This document shows positions 30,076 through 34,026 of a stretch of 42,282 nucleotides of DNA, in pieces. Numbering within the stretch: position 1 is the first letter of the stretch; each line of letters begins with the position of its first letter. The notes under the pieces are model-generated. The model was not told where the DNA came from. It saw nothing but the letters and a program-made list of their open reading frames with translations, and ran no database searches. A program made the position numbers and the translations under genes. Source of the stretch: Verrucomicrobiota bacterium (GTDB lineage: Bacteria > Verrucomicrobiota > Kiritimatiellia > SS1-B-03-39 > UBA6053). The stretch spans positions 1-42,282 of the forward strand of contig JAFIGC010000035.1 of NCBI GenBank assembly GCA_020831635.1, in the 5' to 3' direction.

Positions 30076-31065
30076 CTAAATTTCCTCGGCCAGCCCAAAC
30101 AGCTCCAACAGGCGATCCAAATCGTCGTTGGAGTAAAAGTCGATTTCCAGTTTGCCCCGTTGTTTTTTGCCATTGGCAAGGGAACGGGTGGGGGAAATGC
30201 GCACGCTGGTCCCCAGCCGCTGGTGCAGGCGGTCAATCAGGTATTGCAAATGGTCCGGGGGAATGTCGGCTTTGCCCCCCTCGGGCACGGTGGGTTTGCG
30301 GGGCGGATTCAGGCGGGCTTTCACCTGCCGTTCCAGTTCGCGAACGCTCCAGCGTTCCCGGAGACAGGCATTGGCGAGGATGATCTGCTCGTCCTCGATT
30401 TCCAAGCTCAACAACACCTTCGCATGGCCGGTGGACAGACGCCCGTCGGCCACCATGGTGCGCACGTCCGGGGCCAGGGAAAGCATGCGCAAGGCATTGG
30501 CCACCGTGGCCCGGCCTTTGCCCACCCGTTTGGCAATCGCCTCTTGGGTCAGATGAAAATCCGCGGCCAGCCGCTGATAGCCTTCCGCCTCCTCGATGAT
30601 GTTCAAATCGCGGCGTTGCAGGTTTTCCACCAAGGCGATTTCCAACGCCTCCTGGTCCGTCAGGTCCCGCACGATCACGGGCACTTTTTTCAATCCGGCC
30701 CGTTGCGCGGCCCGGAAACGGCGCTCCCCGGCGATCAGTTGGTAGCCGCTGGCGTCATCTTGCCGCCGGCGGACCAACAAGGGGGACAAGACCCCCATTT
30801 CCCGGATGGACGCGGCCAGTTCTTCCAAGGCCTCCTCGTCAAAGCTGGCCCGCGGCTGCCAGGGGTTGGCCACGATCAGGTGGATGGCCACCTCATGGGG
30901 CGTGTCATCCGGCACGGCCTCCGGAGGAGGCGGCGTTTTGGAGGGTGAATCGCTTTTCGCAACGGGTTTCGTGTCCCCAACGGGTTTTTTTGAGTCGGCG
31001 GGGCTGCCGCCCTGAGTGATCAGTGCGTTCAAACCGCGTCCCAATCCGGATTTTTTCGTGGCCAT
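30076..31065 (-). CDS. parB: chromosome-partitioning protein ParB
   Basis: 329 residues from the ATG at 31065, with AAGGA ahead of it. The typical N-terminus is ATKKSGLGRGLNALI. The CTP-binding/ParB core covers about 85-190: VANPWQPRASFDEEALEELAASI, GVLSPLLVR, and the signature LIAGERRFRAAQRAGLKKVPVIVRDLTD. The HTH that binds parS is at about 205-235 (LTQEAIAKRVGKGRATVANALRML), and the dimerising C-terminus ends around residue 329. It loads at parS and slides as a CTP-dependent clamp to segregate the origin. parA is not next to it in this window; the upstream gene is divergent. No canonical parS site was spotted. Confidence 0.93.
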   Translation of the reverse strand: MATKKSGLGRGLNALITQGGSPADSKKPVGDTKPVAKSDSPSKTPPPPEAVPDDTPHEVAIHLIVANPWQPRASFDEEALEELAASIREMGVLSPLLVRRRQDDASGYQLIAGERRFRAAQRAGLKKVPVIVRDLTDQEALEIALVENLQRRDLNIIEEAEGYQRLAADFHLTQEAIAKRVGKGRATVANALRMLSLAPDVRTMVADGRLSTGHAKVLLSLEIEDEQIILANACLRERWSVRELERQVKARLNPPRKPTVPEGGKADIPPDHLQYLIDRLHQRLGTSVRISPTRSLANGKKQRGKLEIDFYSNDDLDRLLELFGLAEEI

Positions 31066-31230
31066 AAGTGTTCCTTCAATCAATGAAAATGTTGTCAACT
31101 TTCCGCTTGTTAGCAGGTTGTGAGAAAAAGTTCAGTTCTTTTTCACGGGAATCGTTGGTAAGGTTTGCGCGGAAACAAACGACTTAAGAGTACGTTCTTG
31201 ATTGCAAAAACCAAATATGAAAGACATAAA

Positions 31231-32433
31231 ATGACGATTATGACTGAAAACCCTCCCATTGCCTTCCCCACTCTTGCCGGGGAGCGCGCGTTTCCCGCCT
31301 TTGACCTCTGCAAACTGCTGCGCACCGTCTTTAATCCCATCGAGGGATGCAAGGTGGCCATTCTCATTGATCTGCCCGACCCGGTGTTGGCCAAGGATTT
31401 CGCCTTCCTCCGCGCCGAAGGACACCCCGTACAAAAAAAAGCCTACGAAGTTTTCTATCAGGGCCTTCAAAATGGCGGCATGGCCAAGCTGGGTCTGAGC
31501 GGCGGCGAACTTTTCGCCTATGAAACCACCGGCGGCAGCAACCTCGATCTTCCCGAAAACGCCGTGGGCACCGACGGAAAAATCGTAAATCTCGCCAATG
31601 ACGTGTACACCCCGTACGACCTCATTCTCTGCATCTCCGATTATTCCGCCACCGCTCCGCTTACCGCCCATGCCAAGACCTACAACTTCCGCGGGTCCAC
31701 CATGCACGGCTTGAACGACATCATCATCAGCAGCGGCTTGGCGGTGGACTATCGCGAAGTCAGCTCCGACGCCGAAAAAATGCGTTTGGGGCTCACCAAA
31801 GCCGACAAAGTCGAAATCGACTTCGTGGTCGGCGCGGAAAAATGCACCCTGACCTTGATCCTCAATGGCCAGGAAGCCCAAAAAAGCCACGGCCTCTGCC
31901 ATGGCCGCGCCCCCGACATCGCCAACCTGCCCGCCGGCGAAGTGTACTTCGTACCCGAAGGCGCCTTCGGAAAATTTCCCATGAAATACGAAGAGGACGG
32001 CACCCTCGCCATCCAGCACGTCATGGACGGACGGATTTTCGACCTCGAATTCATCTCCGGCAATCCCGAAACCGTGGAAGCCCATCGCCTCAAGTTGGCC
32101 ACCGATCCCGTTACCGGCGAAATCGGAGAACTCGGACTGGGCACCCAAGTGTTGCCCTACAGCGGCGCCGACATTCAGGACGAAAAGACCCTCGGCACCG
32201 TGCACGTGGCCACCGGACGCAGTGACCACTTGGGCGGACATTTGGTGCCCGGGATGTTTGCCGAAGCGAAAAACGCTTCCCACGACGACATCCTCTTCCA
32301 TCCCAACAAAACCCCGGAAATCAAAGTCCCGGAAGTGCGCTGGTACAAAGGCGACCGCACCGAAGTGATCATCGAAAACTACCGGCCCTCCGCGTACATC
32401 ACCGGTTTGCTGAATGACAGCGGCCTTGTATGA
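31231..32433 (+). CDS. M29-like aminopeptidase (AmpS/PepS fold)
   Basis: 400 residues from the ATG at 31231 (a second Met lies three codons on). Parts match the metal-binding C-terminal half of M29 aminopeptidases: LPAGEVYFVPEGAFGKFPM (first Glu), GEIGELGLGTQ (second Glu), DEKTLGTVHVATGRSDHLGG (His) and ASHDDILFHP (His and Asp). Known family members use two metal ions to cleave N-terminal residues of peptides. The N-terminal half (VAILIDLPDPVLAKDFAFL) fits a Rossmann-like part less clearly. Sequence divergence from AmpS means a changed substrate, or a non-peptidase relative, cannot be excluded. The stop overlaps the methyltransferase start by 20 bp, so the two are translationally coupled and probably work together. 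Confidence 0.6.
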   Translation: MTIMTENPPIAFPTLAGERAFPAFDLCKLLRTVFNPIEGCKVAILIDLPDPVLAKDFAFLRAEGHPVQKKAYEVFYQGLQNGGMAKLGLSGGELFAYETTGGSNLDLPENAVGTDGKIVNLANDVYTPYDLILCISDYSATAPLTAHAKTYNFRGSTMHGLNDIIISSGLAVDYREVSSDAEKMRLGLTKADKVEIDFVVGAEKCTLTLILNGQEAQKSHGLCHGRAPDIANLPAGEVYFVPEGAFGKFPMKYEEDGTLAIQHVMDGRIFDLEFISGNPETVEAHRLKLATDPVTGEIGELGLGTQVLPYSGADIQDEKTLGTVHVATGRSDHLGGHLVPGMFAEAKNASHDDILFHPNKTPEIKVPEVRWYKGDRTEVIIENYRPSAYITGLLNDSGLV

Positions 32434-33127
32434 GTCGGAGGCTTTGCTGCGGCAGTACCTGGATTTTCATTTCCGCGGAGATGAACCCGGGTACTTGCCC
32501 CGTCATTCTCTCCCGGATGGCGTGCTCGGCTATCCCCGGCGATGCGCGGAATGGTTGATTTCCCACGCGAAATCCTTTGACCGTGCCTTGGATTTGGGCT
32601 GTGCCGTGGGCGGAAGCGCCTTCGCATTGTCCGCCCGCTTTGACGAAGTCGTCGGGATCGATTTTTCCGGTGCCTTCATCGATGCCGCCGAGACGATGCG
32701 CCGCGAGGGCCTTTTCCGACGCTCGGAAGACCATTGGACCCTCCCTTCCGACGCTCGGAAAGAGCGGGTGCGCTTTCTCCGGGGCGATGCTTGCGATCTT
32801 CCGTCCGATCTGGGGCGTTTTGATGCCGTCTTGATGGCCAACTTGCTTTGCCGTCTGCCCGATCCCGCCGCTTGTCTGCGCGGTCTGCGGGATCATGTGC
32901 GGTCCGGAAGCGTCTTGATCTTCACCACCCCGTGCAGTTGGGATGTCGCGTACACCCCCCGGAAAAAATGGTTGGTGCCCACCCTGGAGGCCATGCATGA
33001 ACATCTGGACCCGTGGTGTGAATTGTTGGAAACCCGGGAAATGCCGTTCGTGATCCGCGAGCACGAGCGCAAGGCCCAGTTCACGGTTGCCGAAGGGTCC
33101 GCATGGCGGGTGACAAGCGGAACTTGA
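32414..33127 (+). CDS. putative 4-mercaptohistidine N1-methyltransferase (OvoA C-terminal-type), stand-alone
   Basis: 237 residues, a class I SAM methyltransferase. The SAM-binding motif I is ALDLGCAVGGSAFAL near residue 57, followed by VVGIDFSGAFIDAAE. The family call rests on features of the OvoA C-terminal domain: an N-terminal ESEALLRQYLDFHF, a YPRRCAEW turn, RFLRGDACDLPSDLGRFDAVL, TTPCSWDVAYTPRKKWL, and the ending EMPFVIREHERKAQFTVAEGSAWRV. In ovothiol synthesis this domain methylates N of 5(4)-mercaptohistidine; in OvoA it is fused to the sulfoxide synthase. Here it is separate and no sulfoxide synthase gene is present. It overlaps the M29-like gene by 20 bp and, at its 3' end, a convergent glycosyltransferase by 47 bp. 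A pair of palindromic repeats lies inside residues 101-116. Confidence 0.78.
   Translation: MTAALYESEALLRQYLDFHFRGDEPGYLPRHSLPDGVLGYPRRCAEWLISHAKSFDRALDLGCAVGGSAFALSARFDEVVGIDFSGAFIDAAETMRREGLFRRSEDHWTLPSDARKERVRFLRGDACDLPSDLGRFDAVLMANLLCRLPDPAACLRGLRDHVRSGSVLIFTTPCSWDVAYTPRKKWLVPTLEAMHEHLDPWCELLETREMPFVIREHERKAQFTVAEGSAWRVTSGT
32714..32760. repeat. paired TTCCGACGCTCGGAA palindromes inside a coding sequence
   Basis: Two identical 15-bp palindromes (32714-32728 and 32746-32760), 32 bp apart, in frame within the methyltransferase gene (encoding roughly FRRSEDHWTLPSDARKE). Similar pairs occur between genes at 2992-3037. The spacing and stem (TTCCGA/TCGGAA) are the same. Confidence 0.75.
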
Positions 33128-33815
33128 GGGTTTGCCAGGTGGAAAGCAGAGCCGCCTTGGCCAAACGGCCCTTGCGGATGGATACCTCTCCCGTTTGCCG
33201 GGGGGTGTAGGAAACCGGAAGTTCCCGAACCCGCATTTTCCCTGTGCAGGCCATGCCCGAAATCAACACATTGGGCGCGAAGGTTTTTTCGGGAATGGCT
33301 TCCACCACCTTCGCAAAGGCTTGGCTGCGGAACAGACGGCAGGGACAGTTCACATCGGAAATTCCCGGACCATAGAGAACGCGGTTCATCCATCGGAGAA
33401 CGGCGGAGATGAAGCGGCGGGAAAGGGGACCGCCGCGATTTTGCCGGTGGCCCACCCATAAATCCCCCTCTTCCCGCTGCCGCCAAAATTCGGGAAAGGT
33501 GTCGGCGGCTATTTCCCCGTCAGAATCGCTTTGAAACACCCAATCGGACTCCGTGACCGCACGACGGTATGCGGCGATCAGCGTGGGCCCGTGGCCCTGG
33601 TTGGGGGCGTGGATGACTTCCAGCCGTTCATGGGAGATCGCATCCAAAATCGCGCCCGTGTCGTCCCGGCTGCCGTCATTGTAGATGCGAAGCCGCCAGT
33701 CGTCCGCCTCCACTCGCTCCAACACTTGCAGCCACTCCCGGGTCACCCGGTCGATCACCTCGGCTTCGTTGTACACGGGCATCACCACAATGAAATCCAG
33801 CTTTTGATTGCGCAT
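33081..33815 (-). CDS. family 2 glycosyltransferase
   Basis: 244 residues from the ATG at 33815, with AAGGGG ahead; the frame is open further upstream but that part is repeat-like and has no homology pattern. GT-A fold motifs are FIVVMPVYNEAEVIDRVTREW, the nucleotide-sugar motif LRIYNDGSRDDTGAIL, the DxD-like metal site VFQSDSDGEIAADTFPEF, and GISDVNCPCRLFRSQAF. It resembles dolichol-phosphate-mannose-synthase-like enzymes but has no C-terminal membrane helix. It transfers a sugar to a lipid or glycan. It is transcribed against the methyltransferase gene with 47 bp of coding overlap, so the two 3' ends share DNA. Confidence 0.85.
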   Translation of the reverse strand: MRNQKLDFIVVMPVYNEAEVIDRVTREWLQVLERVEADDWRLRIYNDGSRDDTGAILDAISHERLEVIHAPNQGHGPTLIAAYRRAVTESDWVFQSDSDGEIAADTFPEFWRQREEGDLWVGHRQNRGGPLSRRFISAVLRWMNRVLYGPGISDVNCPCRLFRSQAFAKVVEAIPEKTFAPNVLISGMACTGKMRVRELPVSYTPRQTGEVSIRKGRLAKAALLSTWQTLKFRLSPAMRTLRQP

Positions 33816-34026
33816 GACCCCTTCATGGGCCATTCGCAACTCGTTGACAAGGCAAAATCGTAATCGTAATCCTAATCCTACTCGAATCCCCCCTTCGCCC
33901 CTGCCGGTGCGGAGACCGGCGCTCCCGTCCACCCCGAATTCCTTCAAAGCGCATGACCCTGAAACCGATAGATTTGCAAAAAAGACCATTGCCTATTGAT
34001 TCGGCATGAGGTACGATCAACTTCTT

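Follow-up and report, generated by a model that had tools for sequence, protein, structure and literature searches.

The ovothiol enzymes described in the available parts of PMC12631010 are OvoA, OvoB and the methyltransferase domain of OvoA, together with an acetyltransferase branch, and those parts mention no M29-like partner; the available parts of PMC13188914 mention ovoselenol only in passing. The stretch of DNA analysed here, 42,282 nucleotides of contig JAFIGC010000035.1 from a Verrucomicrobiota bacterium (assembly GCA_020831635.1; hereafter the window), encodes a methyltransferase related to that domain beside such a partner. An open reading frame (ORF) for a putative M29-like metalloenzyme of 400 residues (P0001, 31231..32433, + strand) is followed by one for a class I S-adenosylmethionine (SAM) methyltransferase (MT) of 237 residues (P0002, 32414..33127, +), whose TIGR04345 and PDB matches relate it to the C-terminal domain of OvoA (OvoA-C), to OvoM and to OvsM. 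A first-pass annotation had described a separate OvoA-C-like MT overlapping an M29-like gene by 20 bp; both ORFs are confirmed, as is the overlap, which is exactly 20 bp (32414..32433, +). The pair is probably an undescribed small pathway. No report of it was found in the openly licensed PMC literature, a search outside which most subscription papers fall.

The two genes occur together across a wide range of genomes. Two overlapping genome draws were searched, one of 288 genomes of the phylum and one of 218 genomes from the class to which G237 belongs. In the phylum draw, P0001 orthologs (51-100% identity) are present in 43 genomes, MTs outside OvoA in 46, and both in 43; the class draw gives 85, 90 and 84. 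Seen from the M29-like gene, a non-OvoA MT accompanies it in 43/43 and 84/85 genomes, and in 95/96 in the union of the draws. These P0001 counts set aside weaker homologs, which are M29 proteins or paralogs and are all that 13 of the 56 genomes with a match in the phylum draw have, as do G361 and G430 in the class draw; the MT counts set aside MT domains within OvoA genes and a fragment in G161. Fisher tests that ignore shared ancestry give p = 4e-48 for the phylum draw and p = 7e-52 for the class draw. The pair is spread over 11 Verrucomicrobiota families in the phylum draw. Among the genomes listed for families f41, f46 and f70 of the class draw, each has both genes or neither, and the same is true of f42 except for G406, which has the MT alone; this both-or-neither pattern within families is a partial control for shared ancestry. 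The pair is therefore conserved, a point on which the first-pass annotation had made its proposal depend, and we judge a functional link between the two genes to be highly probable.

Where the genes are neighbours, their order is fixed. They lie less than 1 kb apart in 29 of the 43 genomes of the phylum draw and 1.2-6.1 kb apart in another 5, and in all 34 pairs closer than 7 kb the MT is downstream and on the same strand. In the remaining 9, two pairs share a contig at distances of 17 kb and 460 kb and seven are on different contigs, and in those seven the sequence fetched on either side of the MT gave no P0001 match; co-occurrence thus persists in 9/43 genomes where the genes are not neighbours. 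Among 80 loci found with P0001 in named genomes, an MT-family ORF is present in the fetched flanks of 28, always on the same strand. A search for a recurrent third gene near the pair in the 80 loci, or near 20 MT loci, returned only patchy ORF families. The largest of these that do not look antisense occur in 18, 14, 10, 9 and 9 of the 80 loci, and the two 9-of-80 families resemble, by eye, SDR and a FolC-like protein.

The first-pass annotation supposed that the sulfoxide synthase either lies elsewhere or has no part in the pathway, and a search of the window's genome (G000; 6.0 Mb, 308 contigs, 96.5% complete) did not find it: the best match to the OvoA N-terminal domain model, TIGR04344, scores 21.9 bits, where the cut-off is 400. 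The domain scores above its cut-off in 13/288 and 5/218 genomes of the two draws, none of which has the M29-like gene (0/43 and 0/85), and 42 of the 43 genomes of the phylum draw with that gene are at least 90% complete. The longer sub-threshold matches in genomes with the M29-like gene are limited to G167 (126.3 bits) and G405 (115.5 bits), in frames of 447-480 residues. Since the pair is conserved and its genome yielded no synthase, the suggestion that the pair works in a different pathway is probably correct.

The genomes that do have OvoA offer the main hint about the substrate of the MT. In all four OvoA genomes of families f43 and f59 (G243, G191, G248 and G161), the fused MT domain is degenerate (L122, L175, L176 and L177): the NLIDR and SPY motifs are lost, and a Lys is present in the GCA motif. 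Three of these genomes, G243, G191 and G248, add a stand-alone MT that belongs to the M29-linked side of the MT tree described below. In seven other OvoA genomes (G081, G157, G184, G060, G185, G300 and G311), the MT domain is intact and there is no second MT match; this motif survey set aside G264, G048 and G245. The combination of a degenerate OvoA MT domain with a stand-alone MT makes it plausible that this MT group handles a 5-thiohistidine-like substrate in trans, a hint that comes from the sequences of two families only.

Other features of OvoA and related loci were seen along the way. In G161 the OvoA N-terminal match is followed at a short distance by another, partial one (289-444), which suggests that the gene is duplicated or broken. 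On a plasmid of Sulfurovum mangrovi (L160:1651-4909), a PatB-family C-S lyase comes immediately after OvoA, an arrangement that fits an OvoA-OvoB pair. A route to ovoselenol or selenoneine by way of SenB, which we take to be the selenosugar synthase modelled by TIGR04348, was considered and rejected: 0/288 genomes score above the cut-off of 300, and G000 reaches 50 bits. The only match above 80 bits in the 288 genomes is that of G259:C12:3147-4064, at 273.6 bits. In G191 and G248 the stand-alone MT has as its neighbour an ORF that looks LemA-like by eye (L133:3886-4491 and L135:4054-4653); a LemA gene also adjoins OvoA in P. saccharofermentans, where the available parts of PMC12631010 judge it unlinked, and its position beside the MT is probably a coincidence.

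P0002 is a relative of the ovothiol MTs that lies outside their group. It matches TIGR04345 (ovoA_Cterm) over residues 6-232 with an E-value of 4.2e-49 and 167.3 bits, missing the equivalog cut-off of 170 bits by 2.7 bits. Of seven related stand-alone MTs, five score above that cut-off (L141, 224.3; L133, 226.4; L134, 228.4; L137, 195.5; L129, 186.5) and two below it (L143, 153.9; L040, 139.5); the OvoA control L160 scores 336.2 bits. Most relatives of P0002 would thus be named by the model, and P0002 is itself a near miss. Its best PDB relatives are OvsM (9bxh, 1.6e-46; the chain is named 5-selenohistidine N-methyltransferase), OvoA (8khq, 7.3e-36) and OvoM (9bxl, 3.2e-32). The OvsM and OvoM chains have 267 and 273 residues, OvoM being either natural or an excised domain, so the view of the first-pass annotation that a stand-alone MT is in itself unusual is not supported.

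A tree of 81 sequences (78 from 91 matching loci and three PDB segments) places P0002 more closely. Sequences of fewer than 180 residues and duplicates were left out, and the MT of L059 is also absent from the rows. A branch with support of 100/94 encloses 18 rows, composed of 16 OvoA MT domains, OvsM and OvoM; the 59 MTs whose locus or genome has the M29-like gene all fall on its other side, as do three stand-alone MTs from OvoA genomes. An OvoA domain from Streptomyces (L163) falls outside the 18-row group, on a very long branch and in a weakly supported position. The tree is midpoint-rooted, which leaves the two sides as either sisters or one nested in the other, and the base of the M29-linked side is poorly resolved. 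By sequence, P0002 is related to the OvoA-C/OvoM/OvsM group and yet outside it. The placement of the MT in the OvoA C-terminal clade is consequently not supported, an outcome that the first-pass annotation had itself named as refuting its proposal; of its description as OvoA-type, the resemblance survives, in that five of seven relatives pass TIGR04345, and the position in the tree does not.

The separation is also visible in the motifs. Where OvoA-type enzymes have NLIDR, SPY and QH, P0002 has NLLCR, TPC and QF: in the alignment, C146 (codon 32849..32851, +) replaces the Asp of NLIDR found in OvoA, OvoM and OvsM, C174 (32933..32935, +) replaces the Tyr of SPY, and F223 (33080..33082, +) replaces the His of QH. 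Position 146 is Cys in 53 and Asp in 6 of the 59 M29-linked rows, and Asp in 14 and Glu in 4 of the 18 OvoA/OvsM/OvoM rows. Residues 172-174 vary with it. They are SPY in all six M29-linked rows with Asp146 (L023, L141, L142, L143, L171 and L174); SPY never occurs among the 53 with Cys146, which have TPC (35), TPF (8) or other residues (10); SPY is present in 14 of the 18 OvoA/OvsM/OvoM rows. His at position 223 is found in 0/58 M29-linked rows that cover the site and in 14/18 of the others. This conservation and covariation suggest that the changed residues line the substrate pocket.

The partner, P0001, has no match at E<1 to Pfam, including PF02073, or to NCBIfam. Three of its orthologs, scored against PF02073 (cut-off 27), give 10.4 bits, 18.6 bits and no match, all below the gathering score, and a search of the PDB with a profile of the M29-like family reaches neither M29 nor NicX up to E 10. 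A plasmid search with P0001 gave three weak matches of 27-31% identity, two of them annotated as aminopeptidase. Profile-profile comparison supports a relationship to M29: hhalign aligns the P0001 family with 12 M29 sequences from relatives over 141 columns (E 1.4e-8, probability 95.5), and the same family aligns with a closer paralog family of 11 sequences over 344 columns (E 4.8e-39). An AlphaFold2 model of P0001, built with 37 sequences, has a pLDDT of 88.5 and a pTM of 0.86, with values below 50 at residues 332-348. VIA-align ranks NicX first for this model (Z 25.9 and 25.7 over 310-311 residues, the former at 13% identity), then the M29 peptidases AmpT, PepS and AmpS (Z 17.9-19.1, AmpT at 19.1), then the crocagin proteins CgnE (Z 13.2) and CgnB (Z 11.9), the others among the matches listed being below 7. 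With Foldseek, the peptidases 4icr and 1zjc are the two matches with E<0.001 and NicX is not among the matches listed; the order of NicX before M29 is therefore that of one aligner. The profile alignment and the model both uphold the earlier description of this neighbour as a divergent M29-fold metalloenzyme.

The residues expected at an M29 metal site are retained. They were compared in 87 orthologs, distinct sequences of at least 360 residues drawn from the first 119 loci, and the six positions that correspond to the M29 dinuclear site are invariant in the alignment of all 87. E237 (codon 31939..31941, +) aligns with the Glu that M29 proteins conserve in NxPxGEV, and E300 (32128..32130, +) with the Glu of GELG, which is the position of H265 in NicX. 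E318 and H325, in the segment DEK...H (E318-H325, 32182..32205, +), align with a conserved M29 Glu and His, and H351 and D353 of the sequence HDD (32281..32289, +) with the M29 HxD, equivalent to H318/D320 of NicX. Cys223, 14 residues N-terminal to E237, is likewise invariant in 87/87. By its sequence, P0001 is a divergent member of the M29 fold that keeps a residue at each of the six dinuclear-site positions, and it presumably binds metals.

Other M29-fold proteins are present in these bacteria. G000 itself encodes a canonical M29 peptidase (L157, G000:C190:4207-5226; PF02073 above cut-off at 254.3 bits), so P0001 is not the sole M29-fold protein there. Relatives in the class have a further M29-like family, which shares about 30% identity with P0001 (L024-L034, L038 and L039) and in which the six metal-site positions are kept in 11/11 members of the alignment and the loop reads GRS[ED]HLGG. 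The loci of this family gave no MT match.

Together, these findings are consistent with an OvoA-independent, two-enzyme biosynthetic module that leads to an N-methylated imidazole-type amino acid. We hold this tentatively, as a reading with something less than an even chance of being right in its inferred chemistry. The M29-like protein would bind two metal ions and act upstream of the MT, using metal-activated hydrolysis of an amide, peptide or related bond to free an imidazole-type amino acid, most likely derived from histidine and possibly thiolated. The MT would then methylate a ring nitrogen of the released amino acid, to give a small molecule resembling ovothiol or N-methylhistidine with no need for an oxygen-dependent sulfoxide synthase. 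An upstream metal-dependent step followed by imidazole N-methylation is the most economical reading of the co-occurrence, the downstream position of the MT, the lack of OvoA, the invariant metal-site positions, and the homology of the MT to chains named 5-thio- or 5-selenohistidine methyltransferases. A more specific version, in which the M29-fold enzyme replaces the sulfoxide synthase across the phylum and feeds a dedicated stand-alone MT in an OvoA-free route to an ovothiol-like product, is unlikely.

Several observations weigh against the two-enzyme module. The Tyr that follows the HxAxG segment in 12/12 M29 sequences, and which we take to be catalytic, is an Asp (D332) in 87/87 orthologs, in a loop modelled at pLDDT below 50; with this change, and with a fold nearer to NicX in VIA-align, hydrolysis by P0001 is not assured. 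The changed MT residues (D to C, SPY to TPC, and the lost His) mean that the substrate may not be thiohistidine or even histidine. The Fisher tests of co-occurrence take no account of shared ancestry, and the rule has exceptions. The M29-like gene of G418 has no MT to go with it, and six genomes have the MT without the M29-like gene (G191, G243, G248, G375, G401 and G406). If the MT always came with either the M29-like gene or OvoA, then G375, G401 and G406 should have OvoA; it was not found in them, and the prediction failed. The MT of G406 begins at base 24 of its contig, so that an upstream partner would be lost, and G375 and G401 are 95% complete and belong to a genus or family in which the two genes frequently fall on separate contigs, but to invoke contig breaks here excuses the exceptions and tests nothing. 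In G161 the OvoA MT domain is degenerate and no stand-alone MT accompanies it. Finally, the activity, the metal and the product proposed for the module all derive from sequence comparison.

The first alternative is that OvoA has been replaced by a non-orthologous enzyme: the M29-like protein would install sulfur on histidine or otherwise make 5-thiohistidine, perhaps without oxygen, and the MT would complete ovothiol A. Every stand-alone MT of the phylum draw shares its genome either with the M29-like gene (43) or with an OvoA whose MT domain is degenerate (3), as this idea would have it. The nearest fold in VIA-align is that of NicX, an oxygenase with mononuclear Fe(II), which shows the fold to be capable of redox chemistry on an N-heterocycle, and the invariant Cys223 would also suit such a role. 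The metal-site residues, however, match the dinuclear M29 proteins rather than NicX, and the MT motif residues are unlike those of OvoM and OvoA. Among the neighbours, named by eye, no recurrent linked gene for a sulfur donor was recognised, and G375, G401 and G406 keep the MT with no OvoA and no M29-like gene. Replacement of OvoA is unlikely on this balance.

A second alternative involves no de novo synthesis. The substrate would be a conjugate of histidine or thiohistidine, either imported or held in store; the M29-like enzyme would strip off its acyl, aminoacyl or gamma-glutamyl group, and the MT would methylate what is released. The M29-type dinuclear-site residues would suit such an unmasking step, no sulfoxide synthase was found in G000, and a bacterial acetyltransferase that makes Nalpha-acetyl-5-thiohistidine is described in the available parts of PMC12631010. 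On the other side, the sole transporter-like gene seen next to the MT, recognised by eye, recurs in 3 related genomes of family f56; a pure salvage role also fits near-universal co-occurrence less easily. We regard salvage as quite unlikely.

Modification of a peptide, as in the crocagin pathway for a ribosomally synthesized and post-translationally modified peptide (RiPP), is a third alternative and an improbable one. The M29-like protein would bind or process the peptide and the MT would methylate it. In fold similarity CgnE and CgnB come directly after the M29 peptidases and, like P0001, they have no Pfam family; in the available parts of PMC10070186, CgnB has dinuclear zinc and no aminopeptidase activity was observed. 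The crocagin methyltransferase CgnL acts later in the CgnB/CgnE pathway. The locus, on the other hand, leaves little room for a precursor, with 132 bp between the M29-like gene and the parB ORF upstream and a convergent ORF downstream. Beyond the pair and its antisense shadows, no family of ORFs of at least 90 residues occurs in more than 18 of the 80 loci, a search that did not extend to shorter precursor ORFs. That the sulfoxide synthase is present but was missed, through an assembly gap or a divergent form, beside an unrelated M29-like neighbour is close to refuted: the assembly of G000 is incomplete and in 308 contigs, and weak FGE-like matches exist, but OvoA is above its cut-off in no genome with the M29-like gene, nearly all of those in the phylum draw being at least 90% complete.

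With these alternatives set beside it, the two-enzyme module has consequences that differ with its product. In either case the pair would mark a small-molecule pathway whose genes co-occur tightly and are not found together with OvoA. If the product is ovothiol-like and made without OvoA, the pair would provide an alternative, perhaps oxygen-independent, route to 5-thiohistidine. If the product is something else, the MTs of this group that pass TIGR04345 (5/7) would be misnamed as 4-mercaptohistidine methyltransferases. The pair is present in a named strain, Haloferula rosea KCTC 22201 (L058), and the pathway is thus directly testable.

The surroundings of the pair in the window were not matched in related loci. 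Upstream lies a parB ORF (30076-31098, -), divergent from the M29-like gene, and downstream a glycosyltransferase ORF (33081-33989, -), convergent with the MT. Besides the pair, six genes of the window were compared, those for ParB, GT2, two histidine kinases, a beta-helix protein and a 207-residue protein; they have matches in 0/80 related loci at E 1e-10, many of which end at contig borders, and the conserved unit appears therefore to be the pair alone. The seven named relatives of the M29-like gene at 69-77% identity come from Kiritimatiellota or Verrucomicrobia genomes. A scan of 12 sources for RNA families gave no match near the start of the M29-like gene; elsewhere in them it gave two tRNAs and two TPP riboswitches, the latter 3' of the pair in two relatives (L043:8021-8128 and L045:9717-9824) and probably unrelated to it. 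Selenocysteine at an in-frame TGA of G001/G003 was considered and rejected, the TGA being the terminal stop.

Compared with described systems, P0002 is homologous over most or all of its length to OvoA-C, OvoM and OvsM, and it shares with them an LDxGCA-type SAM motif and a C-terminal RExxRK...W. It differs from them in its position outside the 100/94 group and in its NLLCR, TPC and QF motifs. Unlike the MT domain of OvoA, it is not fused to a sulfoxide synthase, and no synthase was found in G000.

For P0001, three systems can be compared. NicX, a 2,5-dihydroxypyridine 5,6-dioxygenase (7cn3, 7cup), has the highest VIA-align Z and an aligned HxD pair. According to the available parts of PMC7910607, it coordinates one iron through His265, Ser302, His318 and Asp320; in an indirect alignment by way of the M29-like protein L144, P0001 has Glu (E300) at the His265 position and Ala at that of Ser302, and where P0001 has E237, E318 and H325, the aligned residues of NicX are neither acidic nor His. 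The crocagin proteins CgnB and CgnE (6zsv/6zsu) have lower fold similarity (Z 11.9-13.2) and work in a RiPP pathway that includes a dioxygenase and a peptide precursor, neither seen here. They too are M29-like, with no Pfam family and with an N-methyltransferase in their pathway, and the crystallographic zinc site of CgnB, three Glu, two His and one Asp in the available parts of PMC10070186, has the same make-up as the six positions of P0001. The M29 aminopeptidases AmpS, AmpT and PepS (PF02073) differ from P0001 in that it has no PF02073 match and an Asp for their Tyr; they share its fold and all six aligned metal-site residues. P0001 is thus closest in overall shape to NicX by one measure, and closest in its metal-site residues to M29 and CgnB.

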